64,000 nt of DNA, from positions 3,298,324-3,362,323 of the forward strand of contig NZ_ALVU02000001.1 of assembly GCF_000332075.2 (NCBI RefSeq), written 5' to 3'. This DNA comes from Synechocystis sp. PCC 7509. GTDB lineage: Bacteria > Cyanobacteriota > Cyanobacteriia > Cyanobacteriales > Chroococcidiopsidaceae. A program made the translations under genes and the position numbers. The notes under the pieces were generated by a model that saw only the letters and a list, made by a program, of their open reading frames with translations, made no database searches and was not told the DNA's origin. This document shows, piece after piece, positions 55,137-64,000 of the stretch; the first letter of the stretch is position 1; each line of letters starts with the position of its first letter.

Positions 55137-56042
55137 TTACGATTGCACTTGCGCCACTACCTTTACCTTTTCTAAAAACTCTTGCGTCAACTGAGTAAAA
55201 GCTTTTGCTCCCGCCGTACTAGGATTAGTCAAAACTACAGGCATAAAACTATCTACAGCTTTCGCCACATTAACGTCAATAGGTATATTAGTGCTAAACA
55301 GCTTACTTGCCCCAAAATCTTGATTAACCCGCGCAATCACTTGACGGTAATATCTCCCTGTTAGCAAATTACCCGACATTGTAAAAACTATCCCCAACAT
55401 CGAAACCTTGAGAATTTGGTCTTTTTGATGGCTTTCTTTTAAACTGGCAATTCGTCGCTCTAATAACTGAATCCCAATCACTGATAAAGGTTCTGGTTTT
55501 GCAGGCAATATATAAAAGTCACTCGCTACCAAAGCACTGCGAGTCAAAAGCGTATACCCCGGAGCGCAATCTAAAATAATAAAGTCGTATTCCCCAACTA
55601 GCGGTTGTAATATTTTTTTGATTAAAAACCTTTCAAAGCGATTCCATACAAATTCAAATTCGCACTTACCCAAATCGAGCGCCTCCTGATGAAGCATTTG
55701 CGATACTAAAAATTCGTCGTAAAGGTCAATATCTCCTGGTAATAAATCCAAACCTGGCAAGTTGCAAACGTCGTGTTGCACAACATCATGGCTAGAAAAC
55801 TTTGGGTTATCAACTGGACTAATAATTTGCTCAACTAAGTATCTCAAAGTCTGCTTGCGCTTTCTAAACTTGGCAAACTCCGATGGTGGCATCAAACTTA
55901 AAGTAGCGCTGATTTGCGTATCTAAATCTACTACCAATACTCGCTTACCATGCTCTTTAACTAAAGCTGTCGCCAAATTAACCGATAACGTTGTTTTACC
56001 AACTCCTCCCTTCATATTTGCCGTTGCAATAACATACCCCAT
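55137..56042 (-). CDS. ParA family ATPase, orphan
   Basis: A 301-residue MinD/ParA-type P-loop ATPase. The deviant Walker A is NMKGGVGKTTLSVNLATALV, and later motifs are VLVVDLDTQISATLSL and FIILDCAPGYTLLTRSALVA. The C-terminal part contains SMLGIVFTMSGNLLTGRYYR. ParA proteins position DNA or protein cargo with a ParB-like partner, but no parB or parS-like array is seen here. It sits beside the azoreductase and the nuclease/translocase operon; no functional link is shown. Confidence 0.92.
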   Translation of the reverse strand: MGYVIATANMKGGVGKTTLSVNLATALVKEHGKRVLVVDLDTQISATLSLMPPSEFAKFRKRKQTLRYLVEQIISPVDNPKFSSHDVVQHDVCNLPGLDLLPGDIDLYDEFLVSQMLHQEALDLGKCEFEFVWNRFERFLIKKILQPLVGEYDFIILDCAPGYTLLTRSALVASDFYILPAKPEPLSVIGIQLLERRIASLKESHQKDQILKVSMLGIVFTMSGNLLTGRYYRQVIARVNQDFGASKLFSTNIPIDVNVAKAVDSFMPVVLTNPSTAGAKAFTQLTQEFLEKVKVVAQVQS

Positions 56043-56829: not shown

Positions 56830-59487
56830 TTAACCCAAATCAATACTTGTAGCCAGCAAACTCTGTAACCGTTGCAGCGAAGCACCAAAAAGCAAATCTC
56901 CTTTACCCAATAAATAAGCGGCGGCGGTTTGCTTTCCTCCTAAAATAATCGCTGAATCCGCCTCACTAGCGGTTTTTAATGCTATTCTCCCCGGCAAATT
57001 TGAGCGGATAATTGGCGTAACAACTTTAGCTTCTGGGCGCTGGGTAGCAATAATTAAATGAATCCCCGCCGCCCTTGCCATTGCCCCCAAGCGCTTGATA
57101 TTTTGTTCTAAGGCTGTGCGGCTGTCTTTTTCGGTCATAAAGTCGGCGTACTCGTCAAATATGCAAACAATGCGCGGTAATGCTGAGGATGACTTTTGAT
57201 TGTAAGTGCTTATGTCTGCACAACCTGCGGTTTCAAAACGTTGATAGCGCTTATTCATTTCTGCTACCAATTGTTCCATTAATGCGATCGCGCGATCGCA
57301 ATCCTTAACAATGGGAGAATACAACCAGGGCATTTTCTCAAATTCAGGAAATGTTACCCTTTTAGGATCTACTAAAACAATTTTTAAGTTATCGGGCGTA
57401 TGGCGTACCAATAAGCTAAGTAAGAGACTTCGCAAAAACTCGCTTTTTCCGCTTCCGGTTGTACCGCCAACTAAGAAATGACAGGTATTGGGATCAGCTA
57501 AATCTGCTTCTACTAACTTACCTTCTAAATCTACACCAATGGCAATTTTTATCGGCGCGGTAGGGGGTAAAGTTGCAGGAATAACAAAGTTCTCAAAACT
57601 AGCAACTTGGCGGCTTGTACGTGGCAAATCAACGCTAATATAGCCTGCTTGTGTGGCAATTAAAGGTGTATTAGCGATGCCTAAATGTACCTTCAAGTCT
57701 TGAGATGTATTGACGATTGAGGTAAATTTTACGCCTAAATGGGGCTTAAGCTTGACGCGAATAAATGCCGAACCGACTACAGAACCCAGGTAATCTACAC
57801 CTAGCTTAAAGGATTTTAGGGTTTCTACTAATTGGTGGGCGATCGCATCGGCTTCAATAGAGATGCTATCGGAACTATCTATAGTCCCCCTAACCCCCCA
57901 ATTCTGGGGGGAACTTGAATTTAAGTCCCCCAAAGTTGGGGGATTTAGGGGGCTTTCCGCAACTGGTGCATCAACTTTTTGACTGGTAGGTTGGGGAGTT
58001 TTTATAACAGGTTTTGCTTCGCTACTAGCTTCAAAAAAGCTTTGACATTTGACTTTTTGCGGACAAATATTACATAACAAATCTGGCTGCGTTGTTGGTG
58101 GTGGGGGATTGGGTTGAGGAGAATCCCAAGCTAGCCATTGACGCATTTGTTGCAGCTTTTGCGGAATTAGCTGGTGTACAGTTTTTTCTAATTCATCCCA
58201 CGTAAAAGTTAATTCTTCCCAATTAGGCAAAACGCTATAAACGGCGGAATCTATAGCTACTCCTAGCTTTTCTTTCAGCATATAGCTGTAAAGCGCAACT
58301 TGAGCTAATTGGGCGGATTTATCAACGGCTGGATAAGTTTTGTATTCTATTACACAAAGGCGATGATGTTCAAAATCATAAACTACACTGTCAAAACGCC
58401 CTTGAACTAATTGCTGTGTACCATCTGTTAGTTGAAAAGAATGTTTTACCGTCGGCTTAATTGCGATTAACGTTTTACTAATTACTTCTGCACCGTTGCA
58501 ATAACGCCGATTTTGAACTAATAATTTTGCCCAGTGGTGAATAAGTCCTTTTAAGGCTTCCCAAAGCTGATACAGGGCGGCGGACTTACTTGGATTTGTT
58601 TGTACTATTGCTTTAAGATAGGGAAAAAATGATAACTCGTAAAATAGCTGTTGCATTTGCTGCGCGATCGCATTTATATTTAATTGTTCTACTTCTGGTT
58701 GCAATAACAAACTAAATCTAGGTTCTTGTTTGGCGATAAAAGCAAAGTTATCCGCTAATTGATGAAATTGAGTGCCAATTTTTGATGAATTTCCCCCTGG
58801 CAAAAACATCATATTTCCGCCCCAGCGATGTCCCAAATAAAACAAGCGCGGACACTCAAAAGCTACTCTAACTTTGGTAACGCTAAAAGAGCGCGAACGA
58901 GAAGAATTAGCAACTTTATTCACTGGCTTTATTTGATTTGGGTTACTTATTTCTAGTAAACGGCGATGGATTTGAGCTAAATAAACACTGTCCAGATTTG
59001 CATATTCTAGCTGCGAGTTTGTAAGTGGGCGCTGTCTCCAGTTACTTGACTGTTCTGTTTTATCTACATTAGAAAAACCACAAAGTTCTTCTGCTAAGGT
59101 TTTGAGCTTTAAGTTAGGTAATTGAGCAACTTCTTTGAAACTATGTCTTAATTTTCTTGCTAGTTGTAGCGTACAAGTAACATTTTTTGCTTGGTCTTTT
59201 CCTAAAAATTTCAAATCATAGTTGGCATTATGAAAAACTTTTTCAATTTTAGAATTAGCCATAACTTTATTAATAAAATAAGTTACCAGTTCTGGCTTAT
59301 CTAACACATCTAAAACATAAGCTTTAGTTCCCGTTGTATCTGTAAGATCGTCAGAAGCTTGAATTAGAGATATTTTTGGTTTTGAAGTTTGCCAGTCTGC
59401 TGTTTCAGTGTCTAGCCAAAGTATTTTGGCAAGAGCAAGTTTGTCAATTACTTTAGTAATTTCGTCAGGTTTTGTTAAATAAAACAT
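56830..59487 (-). CDS. fusion of DEDDy 3'-5' exonuclease, Cas4/RecB-like Fe-S nuclease and FtsK-type DNA translocase
   Basis: Three enzymes in 885 residues. (1) Residues 1-190: RNase D-type exonuclease with D26 and E28 in LDTET, D91 in HNANYDL, and Y162/D166 in LEYANLD, a complete DEDDy set. (2) About 200-490: a PD-(D/E)XK nuclease with H242 (GTQFHQL), D366 (GRFDSVV) and E381-x-K383 (IEYKT). C212 plus C472, C475 and C481 give the C-n-C-x2-C-x5-C pattern of Cas4/AddB 4Fe-4S proteins. (3) About 590-885: a soluble FtsK/SpoIIIE motor, Walker A GGTTGSGKSEF (K681), Walker B CIFDEYAD (D778) and IIATQRPEAKVVTPIIRSNL. There are no membrane helices and no FtsK gamma domain. A palindromic repeat encodes residues 512-535 in the linker. 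It is the last gene of a three-gene operon. Confidence 0.88.
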   Translation of the reverse strand: MFYLTKPDEITKVIDKLALAKILWLDTETADWQTSKPKISLIQASDDLTDTTGTKAYVLDVLDKPELVTYFINKVMANSKIEKVFHNANYDLKFLGKDQAKNVTCTLQLARKLRHSFKEVAQLPNLKLKTLAEELCGFSNVDKTEQSSNWRQRPLTNSQLEYANLDSVYLAQIHRRLLEISNPNQIKPVNKVANSSRSRSFSVTKVRVAFECPRLFYLGHRWGGNMMFLPGGNSSKIGTQFHQLADNFAFIAKQEPRFSLLLQPEVEQLNINAIAQQMQQLFYELSFFPYLKAIVQTNPSKSAALYQLWEALKGLIHHWAKLLVQNRRYCNGAEVISKTLIAIKPTVKHSFQLTDGTQQLVQGRFDSVVYDFEHHRLCVIEYKTYPAVDKSAQLAQVALYSYMLKEKLGVAIDSAVYSVLPNWEELTFTWDELEKTVHQLIPQKLQQMRQWLAWDSPQPNPPPPTTQPDLLCNICPQKVKCQSFFEASSEAKPVIKTPQPTSQKVDAPVAESPLNPPTLGDLNSSSPQNWGVRGTIDSSDSISIEADAIAHQLVETLKSFKLGVDYLGSVVGSAFIRVKLKPHLGVKFTSIVNTSQDLKVHLGIANTPLIATQAGYISVDLPRTSRQVASFENFVIPATLPPTAPIKIAIGVDLEGKLVEADLADPNTCHFLVGGTTGSGKSEFLRSLLLSLLVRHTPDNLKIVLVDPKRVTFPEFEKMPWLYSPIVKDCDRAIALMEQLVAEMNKRYQRFETAGCADISTYNQKSSSALPRIVCIFDEYADFMTEKDSRTALEQNIKRLGAMARAAGIHLIIATQRPEAKVVTPIIRSNLPGRIALKTASEADSAIILGGKQTAAAYLLGKGDLLFGASLQRLQSLLATSIDLG
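57884..57953. repeat. palindromic repeat inserted in frame in the translocase fusion
   Basis: The inverse of the 70-bp element at 3779-3848, with the same two hairpins. In the gene's frame it encodes [18 protein letters not shown] then GVRG, almost the same peptide as in lnt. It lies between the nuclease and motor domains. Confidence 0.9.
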
Positions 59488-59529
59488 TAAATAAGAATGC
59501 CTAAAATTTTTAACTCAATAATTTTATTT

Positions 59530-61572
59530 TTATTTAGATGCTACTACTAAACAAATTAATTGACTTTTTGGTTTTGCATGAGGATCAACAATTTGAACTC
59601 TACCTTCTTGACATAATTCTTCTATTAGCTGATTTATTTGTGTTTCTTCTACATTGGGAAAATAATCAGTCGCATTTTTAATCAATGTTTGTCTTCCTAA
59701 AAATGATTGTGTTGCTACAGTATTTAAAAGTAATTCTTTAACAGGTGTTAGAGGTGGTGAAGTTTTTATATTTCTACCTTGCAGTTGTTCTAATAAATAA
59801 CATTCTTCTAATACTTTTGACTCAAGGGTAATTTCTTTAAGTTTTTTGAGATTAATAGCTTCATTCCCAATAATTAAATCTCCCTCTCGCGCATCTTTGA
59901 CTAATTCATAGTAAGCCACTAAGCTATGTACTGATGCAATTTTTGGCTGAATTTGCCGATGATGAAAACCGTTAAATATTTGTGTATAAACTTTATACCC
60001 TTTATTATTTGAATTACCTAATTTTGAATCGCGAATCAAATATAAAATTTGGCATGATTTACGATCAATAGCTTTTTTGCAAGCTTCCATGACATGAAAA
60101 AAGGTAGTCATGTTTTGGTCTTCTGTCCATACAATACCTAAAGTTTCATATTTTCCAGGTAATTTGTAACTAAGAGAATAATTAGCAAATTTTGTTGCTT
60201 TTAAAAATGGTGATTTTATATCTTCCATTTCTAAAACACTTAAGGCTTCTTGCAACATTTGGATCAGTTCTGGCGATGATTGCTGATTTAGTTTAGTTAC
60301 TTGCTTTTGAGCTTTAGTTAATTCATCAATCCATTTCAACTTAAAACTCGCTACCAATTTTGAGCGATCGCCTTTATCTTGTACTACAGGCTTAAATGTA
60401 CCTATACCGCCAGCAACTAGCCATTCTTTGTATGCTTGTATTACCTCTCGTCCAAAAATTAAAACTTCTCTGGGGTTAGTCTTTCCGCGCGGAAATTGTT
60501 CTAACAAATATTGCTGATTTATAGGATAAATATTAGAAGCTGGTAGCGGGTTTGCTTGAGAATGTAAAAAGTGTAAGCGAGTTAATAAAATAGATTTTGC
60601 GTCAGTTAACGTAATCGGTTTTAAACGAGTTTTGATATCAATGCGATCTTTGTGCGACTGATCTACATAAGTTTCATTTTGTCGCCAAGTATCTGTAGTA
60701 ATGCTGATAATTACTAAAAAGTTTTGATAGTCATCATGAATTTTTGTCGCAGCACTAAATAAAGTTTGTAAATCGGGAAACCCATTAGCTAAACGAGCAA
60801 TACTTTCTAGTTGATCGAAACATAAGACAATTGGCTGGGTTTCAGTAGCAATTCTGCCAAAATTGGCTAAAGTCTCACAAGCTGCTTCTTCGGTATTGAT
60901 AGAACTTTTTACCCCTAATTCCTTTAAAGATTCTTCGCTCAAATCGTCGCCGCGCAGCCATTCGCAAGCTAAATCATACTTTTTAGGATTGATTAAATCA
61001 TGGAGTACCCCAAAAAAACTATCTGGATTATAAATAGCTGCATTGTGATAATTTTTTTTCAGATATTTAATAAACTTTTGGCGATCGCTTGTCAACCCTT
61101 CCCAAAAGTTATCTTGCATCAATCGCTCTTTTAAAGTGCGTTTGGTAAACACAGATAAGCTTTTTAGCCATAGCATCAATTGCGAATCTTTTTGTCCTGC
61201 GGGGATTTGGACTAAACTATCTACGGTATAGCGTAAAATATGCCACCAAATGCGATTACTTTGCGGAAACGGGCTAATATAAGCAAAAAAAGCTTTGTCG
61301 TTAAGAGTTTTCTTTAATCGTCCTAGTAAATAAGTTTTACCTGAACCTGGATCGCCTTCTAGCAACAATGTCCTAGTAGTGCGATCGCCAGCAACTTGAG
61401 CAAGAGTATCTGTTACTGTAGAAATCGTTTCTGTATGAATAGACTCTACTACAGGTTCAGCTTGTTGTTGACTGCGCCAAAAATTAACCGAACGATAATT
61501 ATCGAAGGGATTAGTGCTTTGTAAAATCAGGTTATCAATGGATGTCACAATTGAGGTATTTTGATTAGTCAT
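59530..61572 (-). CDS. P-loop ATPase (AAA/STAND-like), middle gene of the nuclease-translocase operon
   Basis: A 680-residue protein with Walker A LLLEGDPGSGKTYLLGRL (residues 73-80) and Walker B PIVLCFDQLESIARL near residue 253, followed by VIISITTDTWR and RLKPITLTDAKSILLTRLH. This order suggests an ORC/Cdc6- or STAND-type ATPase. A middle part with coiled or helical character leads to a C-terminal region (about 600-680) with ELLLNTVATQSFLGRQTLIK, which looks like a winged helix. No nuclease motif is visible. The ATG overlaps the stop of the upstream gene by 8 bases. It presumably loads or regulates the translocase/nuclease encoded 42 bases downstream. Confidence 0.8.
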   Translation of the reverse strand: MTNQNTSIVTSIDNLILQSTNPFDNYRSVNFWRSQQQAEPVVESIHTETISTVTDTLAQVAGDRTTRTLLLEGDPGSGKTYLLGRLKKTLNDKAFFAYISPFPQSNRIWWHILRYTVDSLVQIPAGQKDSQLMLWLKSLSVFTKRTLKERLMQDNFWEGLTSDRQKFIKYLKKNYHNAAIYNPDSFFGVLHDLINPKKYDLACEWLRGDDLSEESLKELGVKSSINTEEAACETLANFGRIATETQPIVLCFDQLESIARLANGFPDLQTLFSAATKIHDDYQNFLVIISITTDTWRQNETYVDQSHKDRIDIKTRLKPITLTDAKSILLTRLHFLHSQANPLPASNIYPINQQYLLEQFPRGKTNPREVLIFGREVIQAYKEWLVAGGIGTFKPVVQDKGDRSKLVASFKLKWIDELTKAQKQVTKLNQQSSPELIQMLQEALSVLEMEDIKSPFLKATKFANYSLSYKLPGKYETLGIVWTEDQNMTTFFHVMEACKKAIDRKSCQILYLIRDSKLGNSNNKGYKVYTQIFNGFHHRQIQPKIASVHSLVAYYELVKDAREGDLIIGNEAINLKKLKEITLESKVLEECYLLEQLQGRNIKTSPPLTPVKELLLNTVATQSFLGRQTLIKNATDYFPNVEETQINQLIEELCQEGRVQIVDPHAKPKSQLICLVVASK

Positions 61573-62368
61573 TGACCTTAATAAAAAATAACGGACTACC
61601 CGATCGCTGTTTGATTCCGGCGTTGACTTGCGCTGGCGAGTAACGGCTTGATTCTACCAACGCACTTAGTTCTATTTTGTCGCTTCCTTCCAAGCGATAA
61701 AGCGCTTGTTCTAAGTCTTCCCTAGATAAAGACGGTTGTAACTTTTCCCGCAAATAAAATATTGGTAAATAATTATCTGTACCAAATTCTTTGTCTAAGT
61801 CTTGGATAATCTGCAAAATTTCCCCATCGTTGGGTTTGTGTTTAGAATCTACTGCTATTAATGGCGGTTGACGCAAAAACTTTAAGTAGGTAGCCAGCAT
61901 ATTTTTGGTTAGGGTAATATTACCTTTCCCGCTAGGATCGTATTGTTGTTGTAAATATTCCTTTCCTCGCTCTGTTAGCCAAACCTCCTTAATTTTTTTA
62001 TCGGTTTTGTTAACTTGAATCAATCCCTTTTCTAGCAAAGCTTGAACTAGCTTTTGGGCTTCTGGGGCAGCAATACCCGTTTTGCTAGGTGAAATCGCTG
62101 CTTTTTGGCAAGAATTGAGAATTTTTAATTCCTGAGCCGTTACAGGTAATTGTACTGATTCTATTTTAAGTAAAGCCATACCTGCACTAGCAATTTTAAA
62201 CTTGCTAACTTCGTAAGTAACCCCCACTAATTCGCGCTCTAGAAGTTGACGACAAGTTTTATCGCGATCGCTTGCTTTAAGGGAACTAAGCTTAATTTTT
62301 GCCAAAGCTTCGCGGTAATTGGGAGCGTCAAGGAGTTTTAAGACAAATTTTAGTTCGATGTTTTCCAT
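61565..62368 (-). CDS. multi-winged-helix-like protein, first gene of the nuclease-translocase operon
   Basis: A 267-residue soluble protein with no enzyme motif. Several segments look like winged helices: about 1-60; about 75-145 with LVQALLEKGLIQVNKTDKK and VWLTERGKEYLQQQY; and about 185-260 with YLPIFYLREKLQPSLSREDL and LEQALYRLEGSDKIEL. It could bind DNA or act as an adaptor for the ATPase. The gene overlaps the next by 8 bases and is transcribed divergently from the membrane-protein gene at 62587. I know of no named family. Confidence 0.75.
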   Translation of the reverse strand: MENIELKFVLKLLDAPNYREALAKIKLSSLKASDRDKTCRQLLERELVGVTYEVSKFKIASAGMALLKIESVQLPVTAQELKILNSCQKAAISPSKTGIAAPEAQKLVQALLEKGLIQVNKTDKKIKEVWLTERGKEYLQQQYDPSGKGNITLTKNMLATYLKFLRQPPLIAVDSKHKPNDGEILQIIQDLDKEFGTDNYLPIFYLREKLQPSLSREDLEQALYRLEGSDKIELSALVESSRYSPAQVNAGIKQRSGSPLFFIKVND

Positions 62369-62586: not shown

Positions 62587-64000
62587 ATGGCGAAAAGAAC
62601 GCGCAAGCAAACACTCCCAGAACTAGAAAGTCTCCCTCCATCAATTATCTATCGCCCGGTAGCCAACAAAAAACCATCAAAAACTAACCGTTGGGGAAAT
62701 TCGTTACTAGCTCTGGCTTTAATATTAACGGCTGCTAGTGCAGTAGCTGGAGGAGCATGGTGGAGTTTGCAGCTATTTGTCAATCCTGACGCAGTTAACG
62801 ATGTCAACAAAATTTTGCCTGAAGGTGCAAAGTTCTCCGCTAGTAACCCCGAACAACAACCGCAAACTCTCAAACAAATTGAGGATTCCTTACGCACGCA
62901 AGGCAAAACAGCCGGGGAACTTTTGACGCTAGAAACTGATGCCAAAACTTCAGCTATCAAGTCTTTAGTTCTACCAGTATTAAAAAAACAGTCCAACTGC
63001 CAAACTGATTGTCAAGAAATTGTTGAATTACGAATTTATCAGCTAGTAATCAATAAGTTTAAGTTACCCTTTCAAAGCGAGCAAACTACTTATCAGCTAA
63101 TTAGTCAGCTACCTGTATCTGGCCCCGATGAATCTTTTGCGATTTCTCCAGTAGTAGACTCAGAAACGGCTAACTATGGTTCAACTCAACTATTACCCCT
63201 AACTCAACTGCAACGCTTTTCAGGCACTACACCAAAATCCGGTACTTGGTTATATTTAATAGGTCAACGCCAGCATTCCGATAATGGGATTGCTTACGGG
63301 CAGATTCTTCACTACGACAGAAGTCGCTCGGCGCTAAGTTTAGTATTAACTTGGACTAGCCCCACAGGACAAGCTCCCAAATGGCAAGAAGTTACCGGCG
63401 GCGGTTTTCCCGAACTCCTAGTCGATCGCACTAGCGAATTAGAGCCACAGTTGCAAGTGTACCAAGTTAAACCCGCCCAAGCCTCTTTTAATCAATTTCA
63501 GCTAGTCCCGATTTCTATTGAAGAACCAGCAATCAAAACTACCGCCTATCGTAATGCTTTATTTTTAGCTCGTAGCGGTCTTTGGACTCCAGCATGGCAA
63601 TGGTTAAAAGCACTCCCACAGGGCAAAAAACGCCCCTCCGCCGCCGCTCAAGCCCAAATTGATCTAATTGGGTTATACGCCAAATATACGAGCAAGAAAG
63701 CCGATACTGCTTGGGCAAGTCCCAGTCAACAAGCGATCGCAGCTTTGAGCGATGGACGTTGGGAAAAAGGTCTGCAAATATATCAAGCCTCACCGGAAAA
63801 TACCCAAGAAATTGCTACTTTTTTAGTCAATGATTCCGGTAGGTTGTGGAATCGGGTAGAAGCCGCCCTAAAAATTAACCCCCGTCGCCCGGAAGTCCAA
63901 GCTTGGGGGGCGCTAATTCTCGGCGCTCAAGAAGGACAAGCAAATGCTTTAATTTGGCTCAAAGCGCAACCTCATAGCCCAAAAACCTTAACATACGTCG
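62587..64000 (+). CDS. membrane-anchored hypothetical protein, N-terminal 471 codons (runs off the window)
   Basis: An ATG at 62587 opens a frame that stays open to the window edge. The protein has a basic N-terminus, one transmembrane helix (about residues 38-58, SLLALALILTAASAVAGGAW), then a large extracytoplasmic region. It contains GTTPKSGTWLYLIGQRQHS and EVTGGGFPELLVDRT. A later part (AAIAALSDGRWEKGLQIYQA and ALKINPRRPEVQAWGALILG) reads like TPR or helical repeats. It appears to be a cyanobacterial conserved protein of unknown function. The rest lies outside the window. Confidence 0.8.
   Translation, partial: MAKRTRKQTLPELESLPPSIIYRPVANKKPSKTNRWGNSLLALALILTAASAVAGGAWWSLQLFVNPDAVNDVNKILPEGAKFSASNPEQQPQTLKQIEDSLRTQGKTAGELLTLETDAKTSAIKSLVLPVLKKQSNCQTDCQEIVELRIYQLVINKFKLPFQSEQTTYQLISQLPVSGPDESFAISPVVDSETANYGSTQLLPLTQLQRFSGTTPKSGTWLYLIGQRQHSDNGIAYGQILHYDRSRSALSLVLTWTSPTGQAPKWQEVTGGGFPELLVDRTSELEPQLQVYQVKPAQASFNQFQLVPISIEEPAIKTTAYRNALFLARSGLWTPAWQWLKALPQGKKRPSAAAQAQIDLIGLYAKYTSKKADTAWASPSQQAIAALSDGRWEKGLQIYQASPENTQEIATFLVNDSGRLWNRVEAALKINPRRPEVQAWGALILGAQEGQANALIWLKAQPHSPKTLTYV

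Follow-up and report, generated by a model that had tools for sequence, protein, structure and literature searches.

Introduction

Operons that couple an Orc/CDC6-type AAA+ ATPase to a HerA/FtsK-type motor have been described by comparative genomics as 'HerA/FtsK capture' systems and are predicted to counter invaders (Rakesh, Aravind and Krishnan 2024, PMC10853773). According to the relevant sections of that study, an active restriction endonuclease (REase) and HerA/FtsK accompany an Orc/CDC6 AAA+ protein, in which an inactive REase domain lies between the AAA+ part and a winged helix at the C-terminus. One set has the FtsK alpha domain; a protein with two to four winged helices is sometimes present, as is a fused 3'-5' exonuclease. 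The same study describes DndFGH as a triple winged-helix protein, a P-loop protein and a protein that joins an REase to HerA/FtsK (PMC10853773). Here, we describe a three-gene operon in a 64-kb stretch of DNA from Synechocystis sp. PCC 7509 (called the window here), the genes of which we name G, F and H. Searches of open-licence PubMed Central (PMC) full text listed no title of an experimental study of this operon in cyanobacteria. The repeated exchange of G-F-H with a pair of genes encoding a nuclease-ParA protein and a ParB-like protein appears to be new.

Results and Discussion

G and F overlap by 8 bases (61565-61572), and a gap of 42 bases (59488-59529) separates F from H. An initial annotation, made from the letters of the window, had proposed exactly this arrangement of three minus-strand genes, and every coordinate agrees with the list of open reading frames (ORFs). 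It took G for a winged-helix-like protein, F for an ATPase and H for a nuclease-nuclease-motor fusion, assignments supported by the Pfam matches and AlphaFold models described below; conserved linkage likewise supports its view of the genes as one operon. The labels 'DNA translocase' and 'dual nuclease' for H and 'ATPase' for F are sequence-based predictions. The coordinates of the genes and their domains are collected in Table 1.

Table 1. Positions in the window of the operon genes, their predicted domains and one context gene (aa, amino acids).
Feature	Position	Strand	Evidence and remarks
G gene, 267 aa	61565-62368	minus	ORF, ATG start; first operon gene
F gene, 680 aa	59530-61572	minus	ORF, ATG start; middle operon gene
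F residues 12-386, AAA+ module	60415-61539	minus	Walker A GDPGSGKT intact; Q after Walker B D253
F residues 403-600, alpha/beta domain	59773-60366	minus	AlphaFold model; W482 and E484 invariant
F residues 609-675, predicted C-terminal winged helix	59548-59748	minus	From helix-strand order in the model
H gene, 885 aa	56830-59487	minus	ORF, ATG start; last operon gene
H residues 4-178, DEDDy 3'-5' exonuclease	58954-59478	minus	PF01612, 6e-29
H residues 200-482, RecB/Cas4-type PD-(D/E)XK nuclease	58042-58890	minus	PF12705 (PDDEXK_1), 1.7e-12; Cas4 models
H residues 546-818, FtsK alpha and motor	57034-57852	minus	FtsK_alpha and FtsK_SpoIIIE matches
ParA1, ParA-family ATPase, context gene on the H side	55137-56042	minus	Pfam; not claimed as a subunit

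The H protein consists of an exonuclease, a nuclease and an FtsK-type motor. In the motor part, residues 546-622 match FtsK_alpha (PF17854, 5.6e-7) and residues 644-818 match FtsK_SpoIIIE (PF01580, 1.5e-41); no gamma-domain or membrane-domain Pfam match was listed at E up to 1. Among solved structures, the motor is closest by sequence to FtsK (phmmer, 4e-47) and the exonuclease to RNase D/RRP6-like enzymes. Among 15 aligned H proteins, the exonuclease residues D26, E28, D91, Y162 and D166 are invariant, as are the Walker A lysine (K681) and the Walker B pair (D778-E779) of the motor. The nuclease retains C212, C472, C475, C481 and Q396 in all 15 proteins. Residues H242, D366, K383 and Y400 are found in 14, the sole loss being in genome G131, and E381 is also found in 14, with an aspartate in G358. 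Cas4- and AddB-type nucleases hold an iron-sulfur cluster by cysteines. The four invariant cysteines of H resemble these and thus suggest that H may also carry such a cluster. In G131 (L075:5925-13873), H has an inserted protein kinase domain and a degenerate PD-(D/E)XK region, and a separate 287-aa PD-(D/E)XK nuclease gene lies upstream of G.

In a tree of 16 of 17 motors (the H of G002 was removed by a length filter), the nearest relatives of the H motor are FtsK-like proteins of loci L094, L095, L096 and L282. These proteins measure 676-727 aa. Those of L094 and L095 lie on a single 6.8-Mb contig, and that of L282 lies on a conjugative Nostoc plasmid.

F matches AAA_16 at 3.2e-9 in Pfam. 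Its AlphaFold model (predicted local distance difference test (pLDDT) 88.5; predicted template modelling score (pTM) 0.87) shows an AAA+ part, then an alpha/beta domain in the middle of the chain and a winged helix at the C-terminus. The leading Foldseek matches are ORC/Cdc6 chains, with a modest best E of 7.7e-5 and a poor whole-chain superposition; p97 and FtsH-type chains are also within the first 20 matches. The ExK motif is not present in the middle domain, which, from its position, is a plausible candidate for the inactive REase that the published class has at this place. All 61 F proteins adjoining H have Q or N directly after the Walker B aspartate. With the Walker B glutamate thus replaced, ATP hydrolysis by F is likely to be slow or gated.

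The AlphaFold model of G (pLDDT 88.4, pTM 0.55) consists of three winged-helix-like units. Pfam gave only weak winged-helix matches below the cut-off (HTH_45, 6e-4). The Foldseek matches are also weak (best E 2.7e-3), and we take them to be mostly winged-helix-containing chains.

We followed the operon in a phylum sample of 386 genomes, which includes 104 of the window's order (Cyanobacteriales), and in 77 distinct named loci. The named loci come from the best 80 of 192 F relatives found by scanning one genome per species across 84,980 species; some of their contigs end early, and counts apply within the stretch fetched, so that a gene missing there is no proof of its absence. Full-length H matches in the phylum sample are confined to the window's order. 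There, H is intact in 32 of the 104 genomes, where 'intact' means one open frame of at least 840 aa with all three regions (G131 was counted as intact), and partial in four more. Among the named loci, 76 of 77 have G, 56 have the H motor and 39 have ParA1. Less than 1 kb separates 80 G-F pairs and 56 F-H pairs. The grouping is therefore not a matter of chance, as G accompanies F in all loci except one and the pairs are close. Separation is rare, with H located away from G-F in G233, G051 and G101. The initial annotation had named universal, vertical inheritance with a housekeeping role, or unlinked genes in most relatives, as findings that would speak against it; we see instead a patchy distribution, although with mostly vertical divergence, and strong linkage with few unlinked cases. 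All named loci are labelled cyanobacterial except L103, a contig of a metagenome-assembled genome labelled Tatlockia. Its F is 71% identical to that of the window, and the contig is probably a misbinned cyanobacterial one.

Many genomes without H carry a different pair of genes, often beside ParA1. The first encodes a ParA of approximately 460 aa (ParA2) with an N-terminal HSDR_N-like domain, in which the PD-(D/E)XK residues R-x-D-F and E-A-K are conserved. The partner is a ParB-like protein of approximately 245 aa, with a ParB_N match just below the cut-off in the copy scanned. The pair is found at L085:4746-6859, L179-L198 and L146:14297-16569, and it is divergent from ParA1 in some genomes. 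A search of the open-licence literature on ParB in cyanobacteria listed no study of it.

In the order sample, the two modules exclude each other. Intact H is present in 32 of the 104 order genomes and intact ParA2 (a full-length frame with both parts) in 39, and none has both (Fisher 6.7e-9, not tree-corrected). The exclusion was counted in 80 order genomes, which alone give 2.0e-7 (Fisher, not tree-corrected), and then in the other 24. Three genomes were not scored as having both: G300 (intact H, ParA2 split in two frames), G358 (intact H, a ParA2 fragment with a stop) and G121 (broken H, a ParA2-like 526-aa frame). The ParA2 count leaves out nuclease-less ParA frames (G111, G123, G213) and weak ParA relatives (e.g. 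G030 and G380, both with H). In 29 genomes, neither module is intact and there is no partial H; one of these, G305, has an interrupted H.

The pattern was also examined on a tree made by a quick search from a single gene, rpoC1, for 79 of the 80 genomes; G131, in which rpoC1 gave no match at the limit set, was left out. Genomes with a partial H (G101, G121, G159 and G278) were scored as having H, and G305, with its interrupted H, as lacking it. H presence changes 20 times on this tree and ParA2 19 times, and decayed copies of H were also seen. H gives 14 supported, independent contrasts. On average, ParA2 differs in the opposite direction in 10.4 of them and shows no difference in 3.6, and in none does it differ in the same direction (median p 0.001, range 0.0002-0.016). 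The genera g6, g10, g16 (where H is partial) and g40 each contain both states.

Traces of the exchange are visible in individual genomes. An H exonuclease piece lies beside ParA2-ParB in G251, and in G199 the same arrangement includes G and F. Among ParA2-bearing genomes, G062 has an intact G, and G042 and G024 have pieces of the H motor. These leftovers indicate a loss of H in some genomes. In G300, intact H adjoins the split ParA2. Calothrix PCC 7103 (L175) has ParA2-ParB in the place of the motor, followed by a motor remnant of 73 aa. In L186, L188 and L189, ParA2-ParB lies between a class I tRNA synthetase with ParA1 on one side and a glycosyltransferase on the other, a site that G-F-H occupies in others. 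Seven of the 77 named loci contain both an H motor and ParA2 (five with full-length ParA2), which counts against strict exclusion.

F also occurs in tandem copies. A tree of 106 F proteins separates the first tandem copies (16 rows) and the second copies (14 rows) into a clade each, both apart from most F proteins adjoining H. The Walker B motif reads DQ in all 16 first copies and DN in all 14 second copies. ParA2 follows the second copy in seven cases. The F1-F2 variant is seen at L119, L137, L143, L146, L147, L153, L154, L156, L161, L164 and L167. The ParA2-adjoining F genes of G072, G231 and G306 group in another clade, which also contains a single second F of a genome that bears G-F-H, and we therefore dropped the idea that they are remnants of a lost G-F-H. 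G-F thus seems to come with either H or the ParA-nuclease pair as its output. A bolder and rather unlikely proposal makes G-F a loading platform of ORC/Cdc6-like type that cyanobacteria reuse with two exchangeable outputs, either H or PD-(D/E)XK-ParA with its ParB-like partner (often with duplicated F1-F2), both doing the same chromosome-maintenance job and replacing each other many times. Separately, a plasmid-borne 800-aa protein (L279:5536-7938) joins an RNase T-type exonuclease domain to an F-like AAA+ part, and frames of approximately 800-850 aa with F-like matches recur in the phylum sample.

The sequences establish the three genes, their domains and linkage, the conserved catalytic residues and the exclusion from the ParA-nuclease gene. 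Beyond this, G, F and H very probably form one DNA-loaded machine for pumping and cutting, a reading to which their domain anatomy lends good support; complex formation, loading, cutting and the cellular role are what we infer. In the proposed scheme, G with its three winged helices and F with its own would bind DNA and load H, as the initial annotation had suggested in having the ATPase and winged-helix partners recruit or gate the motor. The ORC/Cdc6-like nature of F and the winged helices of G make this plausible. F would likely serve as an ATP-gated clamp more than as a fast motor. H would assemble as an FtsK-type hexamer and pump double-stranded DNA, the RecB/Cas4-type nuclease would cut and the DEDDy exonuclease would trim 3' ends. 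The target would be DNA that is out of place in the cell, namely plasmid, phage or mis-segregated DNA. The job would be dispensable in these cyanobacteria and apparently taken over by the PD-(D/E)XK-ParA and ParB-like module.

The RecB-type nuclease and the translocase of H would also suit the resection of double-strand-break ends in place of RecBCD/AddAB. The RecB model reaches the cut-off in none of the 80 order genomes, with 13 weak matches (AddAB was not searched for). However, RecB is lacking with or without H, which leaves the patchy distribution unexplained; complementarity between RecB and H was considered and rejected, as no pattern was found in these genomes. The H motor is an FtsK pump rather than a helicase, and no repair gene occurs among the recurrent neighbours examined. 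A role in end resection is thus improbable.

The most likely role of G-F-H, at about even odds, is that of a DNA-degrading surveillance machine of the Orc/CDC6-coupled HerA/FtsK capture class. This role is favored by the published prediction for the class and by the nuclease load of H. It is further supported by a copy on a conjugative plasmid, by frequent gain and loss, and by the proximity of the H motor to a plasmid FtsK-like protein in the motor tree. The plasmid copy, in Pseudanabaena PCC 7367, has a G that matches that of the window at 3e-38 and an H that lacks the exonuclease.

Several results weigh against surveillance. No F relative appeared among 50,697 phage records, and scanning viral contigs by pattern gave none either; a phage origin of the operon was rejected on these grounds. 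The divergence of H tracks that of rpoC1 (Spearman 0.861, 32 genomes) much as ParA1 does (0.824, 19 genomes), and G-F-H therefore looks to be inherited mostly vertically, although the measure is crude. The corresponding values for G and F are 0.821 and 0.741 (29 genomes each). There is also no sign of a defence island among 128 neighbours scanned with no background set, which is not proof that none exists. Finally, the module that H excludes is partition-like, which fits a chromosomal role equally well.

In such a role, the main rival, G-F-H would act on the chromosomes of polyploid cyanobacteria without canonical FtsK, moving and trimming their ends or entangled copies, and the nuclease-ParA with its ParB-like partner would be a non-orthologous substitute in this task of segregation or copy quality. 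The reciprocal exclusion, with opposite contrasts on the tree, and the shared chromosomal site argue for it, as do the mostly vertical divergence of H, the partition-like substitute and the lack of another FtsK-family match, since a genome search found H as the sole FtsK/SpoIIIE protein in the window genome. The relevant passage of a review (PMC7766704) reports FtsK in cyanobacteria only from Anabaena, on a plasmid. Against this, the job is dispensable in the 29 genomes with neither module, both modules have nuclease domains, H is without the membrane and gamma domains of FtsK, and seven named loci contain both H and ParA2. Overall, we regard chromosome maintenance as possible but somewhat doubtful.

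The neighbourhood of the operon is recurrent. On the H side, a class I tRNA synthetase of approximately 960 aa, which we take to be isoleucyl-tRNA synthetase (IleRS), recurs in 31 loci, and ParA1 is another recurrent neighbour. ParA1 is present in 70 of the 80 order genomes, with or without H. The G side has recurrent glycosyltransferases, in 53 and 33 loci. A 471-aa open frame (62587-63999) that leaves the window at its end matches no Pfam family at E up to 1, and it clusters with a gene of approximately 800 aa on the G side in 21 loci. The neighbour scan covered 128 of 182 listed proteins from 30 of the 77 named loci. Proteins below 120 aa or above 900 aa and those matching the query set had been filtered out, and 54 were omitted by hand, mainly at the positions of common G-side genes. 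Of the defence models, 104 match something at E up to 1e-10, none of them more than two proteins. The 25 models shown include Cas12f, the kinase-type PD-T4-6 and a type IIG enzyme, and the Cas12f matches are probably transposon-borne relatives. The co-occurrence with defence islands that the initial annotation had put forward as a test was not borne out, and the recurrent neighbours are instead the tRNA synthetase, ParA1 and the glycosyltransferases.

This work anchors the predicted class of DNA-pumping nucleases in cyanobacteria. The repeated exchange with the nuclease-ParA/ParB-like pair is a natural experiment, from which the modules are either redundant or incompatible, whichever role is right. 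If the role is chromosomal, the exchange bears on how polyploid cyanobacteria manage their chromosomes. Synechococcus elongatus, as the relevant passage of PMC6328274 states, has no obvious chromosomal parB.

Comparison with Known Systems

SspFGH, in the part of its description consulted here (PMC8092258), is likewise made of three genes that include a Walker A protein and a third gene with an FtsK-like C-terminus. Among defence models, PADLOC SspH is indeed the one that matches the H motor best (2e-66). However, F and G have no SspF or SspG model match, and hhalign gives probabilities of 4.5% and 0.3% (one sequence each). H is half the size of SspH, with only the motor in common (positions 1446-1736 of 1766 in SspH), and no sspBCD was seen beside G-F-H. 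The 16-motor tree does not place the H motor with SspH, but at an approximately unbiased (AU) p of 0.29 this grouping is not excluded. Membership in SspFGH was rejected because F and G are unlike SspF and SspG from L098 and L099 of the same phylum, two SspFGH loci recognised by PADLOC models.

The resemblance to DndFGH-type sets noted in the initial annotation holds in general make-up, as both have a winged-helix, a P-loop and an REase-HerA/FtsK protein. No PADLOC Dnd restriction model matches F, G or H, and F is an ORC-like AAA+ protein, whereas DndF is a P-loop kinase as described in the relevant part of PMC10853773. A search for DptF (TIGR03238, 0 of 70 genomes) was not used, as no control responded. 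Cyanobacterial Dnd clusters are reported, in the pertinent part of PMC8569181, only from the same order and without dndFGH. G-F-H could be the missing restriction partner of orphan Dnd phosphorothioation genes in Cyanobacteriales, and the SspH match of the motor is in line with this. DndC exceeds the cut-off in 92 of the 104 order genomes and in 35 of 37 with H (32 intact, four partial, one interrupted). However, the link drawn from the latter count was rejected once genomes without H gave 57 of 67 (p 0.205). In favor of the proposal, H or an intact nuclease-ParA occurs in 72 of 92 DndC genomes versus 4 of 12 without DndC (p 0.0026, not tree-corrected). Against the proposal, G051 (a single contig) and G159 have H and no DndC match, dndC lies 2.8 Mb away in the window genome, and F, G and the motor tree show the differences from SspFGH given above. 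Phosphorothioation-gated restriction is, in our view, highly improbable. Chromosomal dndC and dndD, mostly with a dndE-like gene, are found at L283-L294, and several of these loci have a second DndD-like (PbeC) ATPase.

Cellular FtsK/SpoIIIE shares the alpha and beta motor domains with H; where it has a membrane domain, H has two nuclease domains, and H gives no gamma match. HerA-NurA is more distant: H scores FtsK models far above HerA, and no NurA match occurs among the Pfam-scanned neighbours (for one scan, the 25 commonest families only).

The initial annotation is supported on the operon, the fusion, the plausible partner roles and the likeness to DndFGH. The defence-island test that it proposed gave no support, and the composition, which it knew from no named system, is described in the relevant sections of PMC10853773 as Orc/CDC6-coupled HerA/FtsK capture. 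The main text of that study does not contain the term 'cyanobact', and its supplement may list these very members. Two differences stand out. The neighbourhoods in those sections are mobile, whereas the present operon lies mostly at fixed chromosomal sites, with one conjugative-plasmid copy. The operon also excludes the nuclease-ParA/ParB-like pair, which is absent from the two relevant sections; the 12 places inspected, of 22 that match in the main text, name no ParA partner. A mobile setting for G-F-H is doubtful. The likenesses to the class as given in those sections are the AAA+ ATPase of F, the H motor with its FtsK alpha domain, the exonuclease fused to FtsK and the separate winged-helix protein G. 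F has a domain between its AAA+ part and the C-terminal winged helix, and the REase of H is predicted to be active from its conserved D366, E381 and K383, a match to the 'active' type as a whole rather than to either of the two published REase families individually. In the domain features tested, G-F-H fits the Orc/CDC6-coupled HerA/FtsK capture class as these sections describe it.

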